NCBI GenBank assembly: GCA_002839415.1
Contig: PGXZ01000002.1
Coordinates: 29,199-93,198, forward strand
Direction: 5' to 3'
Length of the DNA stretch: 64,000 bases
Origin: Candidatus Saccharibacteria bacterium HGW-Saccharibacteria-1
GTDB lineage: Bacteria > Patescibacteriota > Saccharimonadia > Saccharimonadales > Saccharimonadaceae
Below are positions 12,442 through 59,841 of this stretch, piece after piece. Both the position numbers and the translations under genes were made by a program. The notes beneath the pieces were generated by a model that searched no databases, was not told the origin of the DNA, and saw nothing but the letters and a program-made list of their open reading frames with translations. Each line of letters starts with the position of its first letter. The stretch's first letter is position 1.

Positions 12442-12460
12442 AATAAATCGCTAGCGAAAC

Positions 12461-12497
12461 AAAATACCACACAATATTGTATTGTGTGGTATTTTTA
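12461..12497 (+). terminator. Rho-independent terminator after tsf
   Basis: 16-bp hairpin aaaataccacacaata-ttg-tattgtgtggtatttt plus T tract. Confidence 0.92.
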
Positions 12498-12571
12498 TTG
12501 TTTTTATTAGTGTTAGATATTATACTATTGCCATAAGCTTTAAAAATAAAGCATAAGGTGGTATAAGAACT

Positions 12572-16956: not shown

Positions 16957-17089
16957 CGTTGGATTGCTCGTATAGTTTTGTGGCAATTACATTGGTTAGT
17001 AATTGTTATTGACACACAAGCAACCGCTTGCTAGACTTAGTTGACCATAAAAATATATGGTTTTTAAAATTTAAGATACATAGTGTCGT

Positions 17090-17117
17090 GGTGCTATAAA
17101 TTTGGCACCATTTTATA
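17090..17117 (+). terminator. Hairpin tggtgc..gcacca plus T tract in the greA leader (terminator/attenuator-like)
   Basis: tggtgc-tataaatttg-gcacca-tttt immediately before the greA start region. Confidence 0.5.
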
Positions 17118-31295: not shown

Positions 31296-31317
31296 TAAAA
31301 CAATAAGTAATAATGTG

Positions 31318-31352
31318 CAAGCCTGTATGAAACAGGATTGCTTTTTTTGCAA
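31318..31352 (+). terminator. Terminator after serS
   Basis: gcaagcctgt-atgaa-acaggattgc plus ttttttt. Confidence 0.85.
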
Positions 31353-31399
31353 TATTATGCTAATGTTATAAGTAATTTAACAGATTAAAAAACAAAAAT

Positions 31400-33178
31400 A
31401 TGAAATCAGAAAAACTTTGTAGCAGTTATTCGCCAGAGAGTGATAAAAATAATATAACTTCACTTGAATCTTTTATTGAGCCCGAGAACTATATTGATTA
31501 TTTTGATAAAAAAATACCTCTAACCATTGATGCTAAATATAGTGATAACGATTCAGAAAAAGAAGTTAACAGATTAGTTCATGCTTTTAATGCCCTAAAA
31601 CATAAATCATCTGATAACAAAGATACTTTTAACAATCTGCTGAATTTATCTTACTGTCGGGCTACTCAGTATAATACATTTAATTATTACGATATTAATT
31701 CATATCCAGAATTAATATTAAAAGCGGTTGATGACATCAATAGTGATTCAGAATTTATAAACAGATTAATTAAAAAAATAACATTTAACGAGATTGAAAA
31801 TACACCGATAAAAGAGCATATGCCTTATATAGCCGACAATCCTAGGGCTGCTTTTATGAAAGACTATGTGAATTTTGGTCCTGATTACAGGCGTTTATAT
31901 CGGGAAGTGGTTGATTATTCTCAAGAAATAGACGATGTCGATCTATTGTATTCGCCAGGAGGCGAGACTCTGAATGAGCATTATGTTGAGTTAGAGGTAT
32001 TGTCACTTTTTGGTGTCAATATAACTGACGTTAGTGAGGCATCAAGAGGGGCTTTATTTGACTGGGGCGTAAATTTAACTAGAGATAAATATGATAGACT
32101 TAAAAAGATTGCAAAACCCAAAACATATACAAATAGAGTTGAGATGGCTAATGCGTTCCTAGCAACTGAATTTGGTGATGATTTTGGTGATTATATAGTT
32201 GATATAGCTGAATATTCTAAGGAAAATGAATCTGATGAAATTTTTGAAATAATTAATGAATATCGTGATGTCAGTAGGTCATTTAGTAGTCAGTTTAATG
32301 ATATCGATCCAGGCTTTTCATTAGGTGCTGAAAAAGCTATGAATGAAAGGTTGACTGACTTATTAGCTGTTGCCGCCGAGGTGTCTAAAAACGGTAGTTT
32401 GACTGCTGATGTAGCGCCACACAGAGGAAATGAAGATTATGTTCATGATGGGAAGTTTGATATAAAAATCGATTCACTAGATCAAATAATTGATACTATG
32501 AATTCATTTTTGAAATCCCAGAAAATGTTATCAGATATATTGTCAAGCAAAGACACTTGCATAATCAATAGGTATAAAAAAGACGTTGATAAAGTATATT
32601 CACAGACGTATTCGCTAATAAATGATAAGTTTGGTATTGCACAGTTTCATGTAAGGCGATTTGGTGCGGGTAGTTTTGATAAGACGGTTGAACATGGTAA
32701 TTATAATGGTACCGAGGCGACAATCAGTTGGTCTATCAGTCCAAACAATCCATTTGCGTATCCTGGATCAAAAGACCCTGATTGCATGAATGTCCGATTT
32801 GATAGGGAAGGGCGTTTGATTGATGAGGCTCCGGATTCGCCAGGCAGATCATCGATTCGCGATGATGGAGTAATTTCGTTAGATATCGGATCAGTTTTGG
32901 GCGAAAAAACTTCAGTGTCTACCGTTGTTGGACGAACAATTGCGGCCGGCAATATTATCAGGGCTGAAAGTGATAATGGGATTAACTCAATTTCATTAAA
33001 TCACAATACTAATTATTTATCGCAAGAATACGGCAATGCGAATGATTTTGCATGGTTAGCTACGATGATAGAGCAAAAAATCGTGAATAGTTACGAACAT
33101 GCTAATAAGAAAAACATTATAAAAATTGGCAAAACTTTGGTAAAGAAGAGTGTTGATGCTAGCTATTTAGTAAGTTAG
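31400..33178 (+). CDS. Hypothetical protein (592 aa), no family recognised
   Basis: Long uninterrupted ORF; 3' end overlaps the convergent TrmB-like gene by 20 nt. Confidence 0.7.
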   Translation: MKSEKLCSSYSPESDKNNITSLESFIEPENYIDYFDKKIPLTIDAKYSDNDSEKEVNRLVHAFNALKHKSSDNKDTFNNLLNLSYCRATQYNTFNYYDINSYPELILKAVDDINSDSEFINRLIKKITFNEIENTPIKEHMPYIADNPRAAFMKDYVNFGPDYRRLYREVVDYSQEIDDVDLLYSPGGETLNEHYVELEVLSLFGVNITDVSEASRGALFDWGVNLTRDKYDRLKKIAKPKTYTNRVEMANAFLATEFGDDFGDYIVDIAEYSKENESDEIFEIINEYRDVSRSFSSQFNDIDPGFSLGAEKAMNERLTDLLAVAAEVSKNGSLTADVAPHRGNEDYVHDGKFDIKIDSLDQIIDTMNSFLKSQKMLSDILSSKDTCIINRYKKDVDKVYSQTYSLINDKFGIAQFHVRRFGAGSFDKTVEHGNYNGTEATISWSISPNNPFAYPGSKDPDCMNVRFDREGRLIDEAPDSPGRSSIRDDGVISLDIGSVLGEKTSVSTVVGRTIAAGNIIRAESDNGINSISLNHNTNYLSQEYGNANDFAWLATMIEQKIVNSYEHANKKNIIKIGKTLVKKSVDASYLVS

Positions 33179-33950
33179 ATTTTTTGGTAGGATCGTTTTT
33201 TCCAATTAAATCACCGACTAACATAAGTACCTGTTTCATAGCTTCGGCTATTGCTGGGCTGTTTATGATAGTTGCCATCTGTGTTTCGCCAAAGGCTATC
33301 AATGCGACTTTGTCGCCGTAAACGTTAATCTCGACAGGTGCGGTATAAGTGTTGTTTGGGAGGGTGTGTCGATCAAAGAGCCATTCTTCGTCTTTATTGT
33401 CTCGTATGTGCTGCCTAGCTATTTCGGTGTCGTGCGTCAAGGCGTATGTATTGATACCGAGTTGAACGCGTTTTTTGATGAAATCCTGCATAAATTCATC
33501 GCCTAGGCTAGGCGTATCGGCGGTTGTCCTTAATAAATAATTGTCTTTGTTTTCGTTAAGGATGTCTTTGTAAGCTTTTTTTATGCCATCTACACCTTGG
33601 AGGGTTCGAATTCCGGGTGATTCATTATGTTCATAATATATATCTATTAAGGTTGAAAGGTTTCGTACGATTTCTTGTTCGTTTCTTGTGACGATCTTTC
33701 GACGTTTTTCGGCCAATGTTTCAATAGCTGATGGGTGAGCGGCGATGTATATCGCCTTATTGGTGTTGTCTTTTTTCTTGGCTAGTCCGAGTTTTTCTAA
33801 TTTATCGACGATTGCATAGGTGTTTGTGCGAGTTTCGCTTATTAGTCCAGACAGTTCGGCGGGTGATTTTTCGCCGTTTTCGATTAGTGCCATATAACCC
33901 TTGGCTTGGCTTTCGGTGAGGCCGGCTTTTTTGAGAATATCGATTTCCAT
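33159..33950 (-). CDS. TrmB-family-like transcriptional regulator
   Basis: 'LKKAGLTESQAKGYMALIENGEKSPAELSGLISETRTNTYAIVDKLEKLGLAKK' wHTH with 'Y.IVDKLE..GL' and C-terminal effector-like domain. Confidence 0.85.
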   Translation of the reverse strand: MEIDILKKAGLTESQAKGYMALIENGEKSPAELSGLISETRTNTYAIVDKLEKLGLAKKKDNTNKAIYIAAHPSAIETLAEKRRKIVTRNEQEIVRNLSTLIDIYYEHNESPGIRTLQGVDGIKKAYKDILNENKDNYLLRTTADTPSLGDEFMQDFIKKRVQLGINTYALTHDTEIARQHIRDNKDEEWLFDRHTLPNNTYTAPVEINVYGDKVALIAFGETQMATIINSPAIAEAMKQVLMLVGDLIGKNDPTKKSNLLNS

Positions 33951-33956
33951 ACCTTG

Positions 33957-33998
33957 ATATTAGCACACTTTCGATGGTTTGTCAAAGTTATTTTGACA
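33957..33998 (-). promoter_or_regulatory. Promoter of the TrmB-like gene (TTGACA-N17-TAATAT on minus) overlapped by perfect palindrome TGTCAAA-N5-TTTGACA
   Basis: Palindrome arms 33980-33986 and 33992-33998; minus-strand -35 at 33985-33980, -10 at 33962-33957, ATG begins at 33950. Confidence 0.7.
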
Positions 33999-34049
33999 GA
34001 TTTACAGACCGCACCACCCCTGTTAGTTTAAGTAGTTATCATAGCATTA

Positions 34050-34078
34050 TTGACATATAATCAAATATGTGCGATAAT
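34050..34078 (+). promoter_or_regulatory. Strong promoter TTGACA-N17-GATAAT driving a non-coding region
   Basis: TTGACA 34050-34055, GATAAT 34073-34078, 17-nt spacer; no ORF begins for >500 nt. Confidence 0.75.
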
Positions 34079-34084
34079 GATTCC

Positions 34085-34446
34085 ATCGTTGAGAGAAAAG
34101 AGAGACTTCGACAACGAGTGAGAAATTTAAAAATATACCAAGCTAACCAACATCGTTAAACGGTCTTAGGTTGGTGCTAGAGTTGAGCTAAGGCTCCTCG
34201 CACCTTCACGAGAATAGATTCGTTAAATACAAACGATAGCGGGTGGGCCGGATATCGTCTCTGACGTATTAAATAAAATAAAAATACGCCAAAACACAAA
34301 TCACCAAAACAAACGCTGGTAGATTTTCAAAGCTATGAGAGGCTTCGAACGCAAAATCTACCAGCCCATTGGACTGTTATGAATACTGACCGCATGACAT
34401 TCCGATGGGCTGAAAAACAGCCTAAAAATGCGAAAGCATTGTACTT
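34085..34446 (+). ncRNA. Candidate large structured non-coding RNA (class not recognised)
   Basis: Preceded by a consensus promoter. Helices seen by eye: cgttg/caacg, agc..accaac/gttggt..gct, cgata/tatcg, cgtatt/aatacg, 13-bp perfect gctggtagatttt/aaaatctaccagc, ccattgga/tccgatgg, and aatgc-GAAA-gcatt at the 3' end. Confidence 0.6.
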
Positions 34447-34521
34447 TTAAATATAAACTACTTAAACTTCGAATTCGTTAATATTTTAGAATTTTGTTGT
34501 TTATTGTTTCCTTTGCTTGTG

Positions 34522-34560
34522 TTGCCCATTTTGATGATTGATCGTTGTCGAAATGGGCAA
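34522..34560 (+). promoter_or_regulatory. Hairpin ttgcccattt...aaatgggcaa in the leader of the 34.6 kb gene
   Basis: 10-bp perfect inverted repeat just upstream of the CDS. Confidence 0.5.
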
Positions 34561-34611
34561 TATAAGTCCTATTTTTAAAAGAAAGGGAAGCATACTTTTA
34601 GATTTTTATCA

Positions 34612-35526
34612 GTGTGTTTTTTGGTGAAAAAAGTGGAAACAAAATTATTTAAGATTGAAAGAGAGTTAAGAAAAAGTGGTACCGATGAATATATTTTTGC
34701 GGAATATCAGCTTAATGCTGAGAATAGTTTTCCGTGGAACGATAACGGAAAATACAGAGAATATATATCGTGTCCTCATTCCGTTGTTGCGGTAAGCCAT
34801 AACGATAACGCTATAGAAATAGCGGTGTTAAAAGGGCCTGATATTACTCCTGAAGAACTGTATTGCTTAGTCGACGTAAAAATAGTCAAGCTTGATGAGG
34901 TCCCAATTAAAAAAATTGATCCTTATAGAGTTGATCTCTATTATGGGATGTCCGGATGTGTGGAATATTCGATCATTACCCTAAAAAGAGCAAGGAGTAG
35001 CAACGTTTTTGCTTTTGCCCAGTCAAGGAAAATGGTCTTGCATATCGGCCACTGGGGGACTCTTTCTCACGGTTTCGGGTCGACCGTAGAAGATTTCAAG
35101 GTGGTCTCGGATCATCTTAAAATGAAATACAAGACCCTTGACGCTGTTGAATCTAAACGTCTCGATCCTACGAAGGAAGATTGGTTCCAAGTTGATGATC
35201 CTGGCGTGGATTTTAGTCGTTATGATCATTACGCTACGGATGGCCATTACCGTGAAGATATGAGTTTCGTTAGGTATGATACACCTGACAAGGAAGAGAT
35301 TTTTGCCGAAAAATTTATTTCCTTTACGGAGGTCCAACCGGTCGTAAAGGATGAGCAGGATCTTGTAGCTCAAGGGTTTATCATCCCTGAAGATTATTGG
35401 GCAACTGATCTACCGCATGACCACGAAGCCGAACGGCTCGCGAAAAAAAAGCCTAAAGTTGAAGAGGTATGCGAGTACGATGACGATATCAACGTTGATG
35501 TCGCTGAGGTTGTTGAAGCTGAGTAG
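34612..35526 (+). CDS. Hypothetical acidic soluble protein (start uncertain; GTG at 34624 possible)
   Basis: 304-aa ORF with coding-like composition; no family recognised. Confidence 0.65.
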   Translation: MCFLVKKVETKLFKIERELRKSGTDEYIFAEYQLNAENSFPWNDNGKYREYISCPHSVVAVSHNDNAIEIAVLKGPDITPEELYCLVDVKIVKLDEVPIKKIDPYRVDLYYGMSGCVEYSIITLKRARSSNVFAFAQSRKMVLHIGHWGTLSHGFGSTVEDFKVVSDHLKMKYKTLDAVESKRLDPTKEDWFQVDDPGVDFSRYDHYATDGHYREDMSFVRYDTPDKEEIFAEKFISFTEVQPVVKDEQDLVAQGFIIPEDYWATDLPHDHEAERLAKKKPKVEEVCEYDDDINVDVAEVVEAE

Positions 35527-35786
35527 TAGTCGTATTCTACGACTATAAAAATAGAAAATTTGTCAAGCTCTCGATAAAAAATTGAGCGGCAGTTGGTTTC
35601 TGCCACAATAAAAACCCTTGAGTTCGCAAGCGTAACGAACCGCGAGTGCATTAACGCACCCACCGAGATGATGCGACAAATCATCTCAATAAACCTTGAA
35701 CTTATCAATTGAATTATGCGGATAAACCTTGTCAATATAATTCAGTCTGAGAGGCTGACGAGTAATAATAAAAGAGAAGGAAAAAT
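35527..35786 (+). ncRNA. Structured non-coding intergenic region (3' UTR hairpins plus 5' leader of the next gene)
   Basis: Hairpins tagtcgta-ttc-tacgacta, ggcag/ctgcc, gagatgat-gcgacaa-atcatctc, tgaattat/ataattca. Confidence 0.4.
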
Positions 35787-36302
35787 ATGGAAAATTTGAA
35801 AAATTCAAATGAATTTGAGCGAACTGAATTAAAGTTTAATAAAGAAATGGCGAATGACCTTATGGATAAACTGGACAAAGGCTTTGCGCTGCCGTTTTAT
35901 GATGATTCAGACCCTGATTATGCACATGGGCATATCGACATGGGCGGCGTTCATTGTAAAGTCGGTGTTGACATCGAAAATCAAAAGCGAGCACGAATAT
36001 TAGATGTATGTGGATGGGTTGGATCTGAATATGATTCAAGGACTTATTCTCCAAAAGGATCGGGTACTTATATAAATATTCCACTTCCTAGGGAAATTGG
36101 TGATTTAGTATTAGAAGTCGAAGAAGTGTGCAATAGTGACGGTGATTCTGATTATTGGTATAGTGTCGTTCGCCCAACGGGTGAGTTTTATTCTGACCTC
36201 GAGCTGGCTGAGCGAATCGATGATTATGTCGATATCCAGGATGAAAGTGATAAACAGATCACTGCCGAAGAGATAAAACGTCGCAGTACATTCGTTAAAT
36301 AA
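35787..36302 (+). CDS. Hypothetical acidic protein (171 aa)
   Basis: ORF with upstream agaagga RBS-like sequence; no family recognised. Confidence 0.65.
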   Translation: MENLKNSNEFERTELKFNKEMANDLMDKLDKGFALPFYDDSDPDYAHGHIDMGGVHCKVGVDIENQKRARILDVCGWVGSEYDSRTYSPKGSGTYINIPLPREIGDLVLEVEEVCNSDGDSDYWYSVVRPTGEFYSDLELAERIDDYVDIQDESDKQITAEEIKRRSTFVK

Positions 36303-36446
36303 TTAGTTTGTTCAAAGTACGGCTAGCCTCTGTGGTAGGGGCTGGTCGACCAAGAAATTACAAAATTCATGTAATTTTATCAAATCATTGATAACTTCAC
36401 AGGGGTTTTGTGCCATAAATGGTCACATAATTCCAATTTAAAAATT

Positions 36447-36595
36447 AAAATTTGTAGAGTTGCTTCGAAAGAACGTCTATCTTAGTGGGGTGCGGTAAGT
36501 GTCGCACTCCAAAGTTGAAGCCTCTCATTTCGCGTACTATCGGAGTACCCACAAATTTTCGCGGTAATATGTCAGTTATTCTGACATATGCGCGA
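36447..36595. ncRNA. Structured element upstream of raiA (about 113-nt closed domain plus a second hairpin)
   Basis: aaaatttgt/acaaatttt closing stem (36447-36455/36551-36559), agag-tt-gcttc/gaagcctct, ggggtgcg/cgcactcc, gtact/agtac, then cgcg..atatgtcag-ttatt-ctgacatat..cgcg. Confidence 0.5.
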
Positions 36596-36614
36596 GAATT
36601 GGTTATGAATTTCT

Positions 36615-36622
36615 GCTATAAT
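36615..36622 (+). promoter_or_regulatory. Extended -10 promoter (TGCTATAAT) of raiA
   Basis: TGcTATAAT upstream of an aggaggg RBS and ATG at 36655. Confidence 0.65.
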
Positions 36623-36654
36623 ATAAGTACAACCAACCAAAACAGGAGGGTCGC

Positions 36655-59578: not shown

Positions 59579-59607
59579 ATAGTTACTCCTGTAAACTTAT
59601 AAAATAT

Positions 59608-59637
59608 AAAAGAAACGCTAAATCTAGCGTTTCTTTT
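59608..59637. terminator. Bidirectional terminator between glyS and the micro-ORF
   Basis: aaaagaaacgcta-aatc-tagcgtttctttt. Confidence 0.92.
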
Positions 59638-59659
59638 ATATAAATTCCCCAAAAATTAA

Positions 59660-59746
59660 CTAATAAACTTTTTTCTCTTTTGCAGCCTTGTCTTTTGATG
59701 GGGCTTTCTTTGTGCCTTTGCCTGGCTTTGATGCACCTTTTGCCAT
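59660..59746 (-). CDS. 28-aa lysine-rich small protein MAKGASKPGKGTKKAPSKDKAAKEKKVY (absent from the ORF track)
   Basis: ATG at 59746 (minus), stop TAG, strong SD 'aggaggt' 6 nt upstream, terminator directly downstream. Confidence 0.75.
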   Translation of the reverse strand: MAKGASKPGKGTKKAPSKDKAAKEKKVY

Positions 59747-59841
59747 TTTAAAACCTCCTGTTTAATCTTCATTATCTATTATGCGCTAACAAGCATAATA
59801 ATTTCAAGCAAACAGAGTATTTTATAGTAGAATAGATAGGT

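Follow-up and report, generated by a model that had tools for sequence, protein, structure and literature searches.

The window analysed here is a 64,000-nt stretch of contig PGXZ01000002.1 from Candidatus Saccharibacteria bacterium HGW-Saccharibacteria-1, in which an accessory island lies between serS and hpf and contains orf592, a TrmB-type regulator gene, a structured RNA region preceding the cargo genes, two cargo genes, a structured intercistronic region, and a structured trailer (Table 1). In the relatives inspected, the end of serS directly precedes the hpf promoter and ribosome-binding site, and 24 hpf loci have a serS homologue. The two genes are 5.3 kb apart in the window, which keeps the hpf promoter (TGCTATAAT, about 36613). 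The site of the island is occupied in another genome (G207, L021 1977–3369) by a reverse transcriptase upstream of hpf, accompanied by a likely variable-protein remnant, a C-terminal fragment typical of the targets of diversity-generating retroelements. No recombinase or integrase was noticed on reading through the islands.

Homologues of orf592, of 546–846 aa, adjoin TrmB or the RNA in the 8 aligned loci, and a class-wide sample of 396 genomes contained members of this protein family in 10, which all belong to one taxonomic family and nine of which carry a TrmB homologue on the same contig. Profile searches of orf592 against Pfam, NCBIfam, and PADLOC gave no match, and an AlphaFold2 model from an 8-row alignment (mean pLDDT 62, with residues 1–197 unreliable) gave no PDB match at E 0.001.

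Table 1. Features of the island and its RNA region, in window coordinates
Feature	Position	Strand	Basis or remark
Accessory island between serS and hpf	31296..36612	.	Boundaries approximate; empty site of relatives
orf592, founding member, in this analysis, of a protein family	31400..33178	+	Homologues in 8 aligned loci
TrmB-type transcriptional regulator gene	33159..33950	-	PF01978, E 2.8e-9
Predicted operator TGTCAA-N7-TTGACA	33980..33998	.	Perfect inverted half-sites in 35 loci
Conserved box ACCCCTGTTA between divergent promoters	34016..34025	.	Position across related loci
Promoter TTGACA-N17-GATAAT	34050..34078	+	Sequence inspection; equivalent position in related loci
Structured RNA, putative 5' leader	34085..34632	+	z -7.7; start site inferred from -10
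5' hairpin (CGTTG/CAACG)	34087..34116	+	Sequence; related loci also have a 5' hairpin after the promoter
A/C-rich linker	34290..34313	+	Contains 34301-34309 (TCACCAAAA), complement of 34619-34627 (TTTTGGTGA)
3' hairpin Pa, 13-bp perfect stem, loop containing ATGAGAGGCTTC	34315..34365	+	Inverted-repeat search and fold
3' hairpin Pb, apical loop AAUACUGACCG	34366..34408	+	Fold; UGACC loop type
Small 3' hairpins (CTG/CAG; ATGC-GAAA-GCAT)	34409..34440	+	Fold
Terminator-like or attenuator-like hairpin preceding cargo ORF 1	34518..34564	+	T-run weak, separated from stem
Cargo ORF 1, GTG start after GGTGA, 297 aa	34633..35526	+	ORF list (listed from 34612 as 304 aa); no Pfam/NCBIfam match
Structured intercistronic region	35527..35786	+	z -5.55, 0/200 shuffles
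Cargo ORF 2, 171 aa	35787..36302	+	ORF list
Structured trailer	36303..36600	+	z -6.6 for 36303-36640; 36506-36524 holds CTCCAAAGTTGAAGCCTC-type element

Control region and fold of the RNA

The regulator belongs to the TrmB family, with a PF01978 score of 37.2 bits against a gathering score of 25.6. A palindrome adjoins the TrmB start in 35 loci, with perfectly inverted half-sites that co-vary between loci (TGTCAA in 17, TGTCGA in 12, TGTAAA in 3, and TGTGAA in 3) and a spacer of 7 bp in 32 of the 35. Paired half-site changes across a largely constant spacer are the trace expected of a dimeric DNA-binding protein. The left half-site of the window operator doubles as the -35 hexamer of the TrmB promoter predicted on the - strand (33985–33957). 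The conserved box, in most loci where it is recognised, lies 35–37 bp past the operator start and 32–33 bp ahead of the -35, with operator, box, and promoter of the window all at this standard spacing. Judged from sequence, TrmB most likely controls its own gene and the divergent promoter. The PF01978 DNA-binding domain and palindromic operator are shared with TrmB-family sugar-responsive regulons, although the regulator here is tied to an accessory island.

The divergent promoter is present as described in an earlier note made from the sequence alone, matching 11 of 12 consensus positions, with TG preceding the -10. The same note saw some 660 nt without a plausible coding sequence and considered the size of this kept region unusual; both statements hold. 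The interval separating the TrmB gene from the ORF listed next (33951–34611) measures 661 nt, contains no listed ORF reaching 50 aa, and is the longest of the ten window gaps of at least 120 nt (the runner-up measures 352 nt). The helices that had been named, namely a 13-bp stem, an adjacent stem, and a GAAA hairpin, were all found along with the A/C linker, and their stability exceeds that of shuffled sequences. Folding of 34084–34450 gives z = -4.9, with 0 of 100 dinucleotide shuffles equally stable, whilst the compact 3' domain (34313–34450) reaches z = -7.7 (0/200 shuffles), a value also obtained from the start site to the start codon. The arms of the Pa stem lie at 34315–34327/34353–34365, and the adjacent 8-bp stem, that of Pb (34366–34373/34401–34408), is present with seven Watson-Crick pairs and one G.U. 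Both strands fold well, with the better z on the + strand. A perfect 13-bp inverted repeat (AGTTTAAGTAGTT, 34025–34037/34456–34468) flanks the promoter and the RNA, coinciding with the ends of the region delimited in the earlier note. Fold stability alone is not decisive, because several other window gaps also fold strongly, for example 12442–12571 (z -5.7). Further gaps with strongly negative fold z-scores lie at 59579–59771 and 16957–17117.

The RNA had been described as of unrecognised class, and comparison of the window with the Rfam 15 families agreed, giving 0 matches at gathering score and only chance-level matches, none credible, at a relaxed E-value; in 20 related loci Rfam returned two tRNAs and nothing else. 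ARAGORN called no tRNA or tmRNA in the window. At the locus itself, neither the tmRNA family RF00023 nor the RNase P RNA family RF00010 matched, with the tmRNA and the RNase P RNA of this genome located on another contig. A search limited to a collection of open-access papers found none linking Saccharibacteria to TrmB, to a ring nuclease, or to structured and noncoding RNA. The evidence supports a structured non-coding RNA locus outside Rfam, most likely transcribed from the promoter at 34050 and with relatives in other genomes.

Related loci and leader types

The nucleotide search for homologues proposed in the earlier note was unproductive, with blastn of the window RNA against 200 family genomes returning weak hits only; two of these were pilB coding DNA, the others checked also lay in ORFs, and all were rejected as homologues. 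A segment of 19–30 nt within 34250–34280 is similar, in the same sense, to pilB coding DNA from two relatives, probably by chance. Relatives were instead found via the TrmB gene, using an alignment of the window protein with that of G205, a genome of the same genus (54–58% identity), which recovered TrmB homologues from 62 of the 397 family genomes searched. In G205, an orf592 homologue precedes TrmB, beyond which a divergent strong promoter leads into a leader that is structured and non-coding. Upstream regions were read at ~60 TrmB-homologue places, and an arrangement of divergent TrmB, symmetric operator, conserved box, strong promoter, structured leader, and variable ORFs was present in more than 30 family loci and absent from some. 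Many TrmB-linked loci sit at contig ends, and some in the sample are closely related.

Twenty-two leaders of 168–574 nt gave z below -2 in all but one, with a mean of -5.5, and seven of them, including the window's with its hairpin Pb, have UGACC apical loops, against 0.60 expected. The window locus shares the features of the TrmB-linked leader group, with TrmB, operator, box, promoter spacing, a leader z below -2, and a following ORF all present. Two types were distinguished among the relatives. Type B comprises six loci sharing a nearly identical 5' hairpin, the exact pattern of which occurs in the 397 genomes solely beside TrmB homologues (6/6), and pairing in its 3' domain is kept though the stem bases differ. 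Sequence alignment of the window RNA to the type-B leaders was uninformative past the 5' end.

Type A, a sister leader group that aligns well, yielded the covariation that had been proposed as a check, with both sides changed in 8 pairs and in 12 cells (0/500 shuffles for the cells); this signal collapses once the partners are slid. Frequent G.U pairs in type A are consistent with an RNA of the leader strand. A short hairpin, CUCAG/CUGAG, alternative to a long stem, is found in 6/6 type-A sequences and is too invariant for the covariation test. The type-A covariance model R1 recovered held-out loci at 34–71 bits and gave matches in 15 of the 397 genomes, in several of which one contig carries two or three copies. 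The window was not matched by R1 (best 8 bits, on the wrong strand), and the window RNA is for this reason a separate sequence type. The covariation is accordingly evidence for the sister type A and does not extend to the window RNA itself; the apparent kinship of the latter with these relatives is argued from its position, module order, and loop motif.

These observations also bear on the reading that the folds are chance structure, or decayed sequence, and serve no RNA function. Whilst the other well-folded window gaps and the lack of a sequence homologue in 200 family genomes speak for it, the many loci with the same place, the same architecture, and equally stable leaders, the covariation of sister type A, and the excess of UGACC loops all argue against it, and we regard it as very improbable.

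Cargo genes and possible leader function

Nearly all complete leaders precede an ORF with a ribosome-binding site, and the position of the leader is conserved across loci, whilst the cargo is not. The Shine-Dalgarno sequences of the cargo genes have a median predicted accessibility of 0.24, compared with 0.54–0.56 in a small control set of 12 ordinary window genes (p 0.001–0.002, with some of the tested loci close kin), so that occlusion is predicted as a trend of the group. In the window, cargo ORF 1 has a weak start codon (GTG) and a predicted Shine-Dalgarno accessibility of 0.02, corresponding to an almost wholly paired site. The A/C linker had been described as single-stranded; the linker exists, but its segment 34301–34309 and the ribosome-binding region of cargo ORF 1 (34619–34627) are complementary (inverted repeat I1).

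On balance, we slightly prefer to read the region as a cis-acting leader, the long and structured 5' part of a polycistronic mRNA that TrmB would control and that belongs to a variable accessory island. This reading is favoured because more than 30 related loci place the RNA before an ORF whose ribosome-binding site tends to be occluded, because several cargo ORFs within one unit of the array L150 have a repeated structured element of their own, and because cargo ORF 2 of the window also follows very structured RNA. In L150, three tandem units each open with operator, promoter, and leader, and the repeated element stands immediately 5' of the start codon of successive cargo ORFs. The L150 segment 4500–13450 holds at least 7 cargo ORFs, many starting MANS, with a GC content of 0.5–0.63 compared with nearer 0.43 for the genome.

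Under the leader reading, a TrmB-type dimer would bind the palindrome, overlapping its own -35, and would probably also set the strong divergent promoter across the conserved box, with whichever sign. Transcription would start near 34085, the RNA folding modularly into a 5' hairpin, a multibranch domain, the A/C linker, and the 3' hairpins, and would continue into the cargo ORFs with structured RNA before each. The folded leader would mask the first cargo gene's ribosome-binding site, which in the window would involve the A/C linker. Cargo synthesis would then require both an active promoter and remodelling of the leader, for which a protein bound to the RNA might be responsible; the orf592 product is one candidate for such a partner. 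From the predicted pairing, restraint of cargo translation until such remodelling is the most likely role of the leader.

The earlier note's description of a self-contained ~360-nt RNA locus holds as far as a structured, non-coding RNA outside Rfam is concerned, but not as to a free-standing gene, since more than 30 related loci run into ORFs; a polycistronic 5' leader is the more likely of the two. The terminator-like hairpin that separates cargo ORF 1 from the 3' hairpins counts against a leader, as does the weak GTG start of this ORF; the hairpin would suit a free-standing, large trans-acting RNA that is itself the product and ends near 34450–34570, with the downstream ORFs as passengers. 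The conserved leader position beside unconserved cargo and the compact, very stable 3' domain are also consistent with such an RNA. A strong intrinsic terminator is absent, however, the cargo ribosome-binding sites are predicted to be occluded, structured elements also lie between cargo ORFs, and the RNA sequence evolves very fast; sequence change of this speed is not known from trans-acting large RNAs. A trans-acting product is hence unlikely, though worth serious consideration. Two further points weigh against the leader reading: the number of modules differs from locus to locus, unexpectedly so for a simple translational switch, and neither the type-A model nor, past the 5' end, the type-B alignment reaches the window RNA.

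The tandem units with different cargo, the many loci at contig ends, and the 13-bp inverted repeat surrounding the window RNA could also be explained at the level of DNA, with the palindromes acting as folded single-stranded recombination sites that swap cassettes in an integron-like manner and with transcription incidental. An operator and a promoter accompany every unit, however, the G.U pairs and covariation of type A fit an RNA of one strand, and the islands as read revealed no recombinase, making this explanation improbable. Integron cassette arrays comprise a tyrosine integrase and attC sites. They resemble the present loci in their tandem exchangeable cargo and repeated structured elements, and differ from them in that here several promoters occur per array, the structure is supported as RNA, and no integrase was noticed.

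Amongst cargo proteins, one group matches Csx3 profiles, with TIGR02579 at E 3e-8, below its cut-off, and clearly so in PADLOC for L081 (Csx3, E 1e-15), and Pfam searches of ten cargo proteins gave a single sub-threshold match, again Csx3 (L049). The L090 cargo matched no profile. A further family, of ~114 aa and recurring as cargo in L084, L099, and L104, may resemble DUF1874/AcrIII-1; because Pfam gave no match for it, the likeness is only a lead.

Comparison with known RNAs and wider setting

Riboswitches, RNA thermometers, and ribosomal-protein leaders are cis-acting structured 5' leaders, with which the window group shares structured RNA before the start codon and a predicted occluded ribosome-binding site, and type A perhaps two mutually exclusive helices. 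Unlike these, the TrmB-linked group has cargo unrelated between loci, a variable number of modules, structure that continues in the intercistronic regions and the trailer, and a dedicated divergent regulator. OLE, ROOL, GOLLD, and raiA are large structured bacterial ncRNAs, likewise of hundreds of nucleotides with many helices and little or no coding capacity; in contrast to them, the window group has no Rfam match, is poorly conserved in sequence, runs into ORFs, and is TrmB-linked.

The RNA group is outside Rfam and its partner protein family outside Pfam, NCBIfam, and PADLOC, and related islands bearing equally structured, fast-changing leaders are spread across a single family of tiny epibiotic bacteria. 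Should the leader model hold, acquired genes of these small bacteria would be under a double lock of TrmB switch and structured leader, and some of the locked genes resemble ring nucleases, enzymes acting on cyclic-oligoadenylate signals. With so many parallel loci, the model can be tested directly. A broader proposal, which we consider possible but rather doubtful, is that the TrmB-type switch, the orf592-family protein, and the modular structured RNA together make up a single expression platform of accessory islands restricted to this Saccharibacteria lineage, with polycistronic transcripts built of leader, intercistronic, and trailer modules, exchangeable cargo that is in part Csx3-ring-nuclease-like, and possible closure by leader-trailer pairing.

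Long-range pairing between leader and trailer is possible on the basis of complementarity, which extends over 14 nt in the window (1/100 shuffles) and is nothing beyond shuffles in the G205 island, and it stays a lead because of the latter. The apical loop of Pa (34335–34348) is the segment concerned, complementary over 14 nt, with one G.U, to trailer positions 36515–36528, 2.2 kb downstream; the Pa-loop 12-mer and its complement each occur once in the window. A CTCCAAA...TTGAAGCCTC element is common to the trailers of the window (36506–36524) and of G205 (L157 4750–4770), the chromosomal contexts of which differ.
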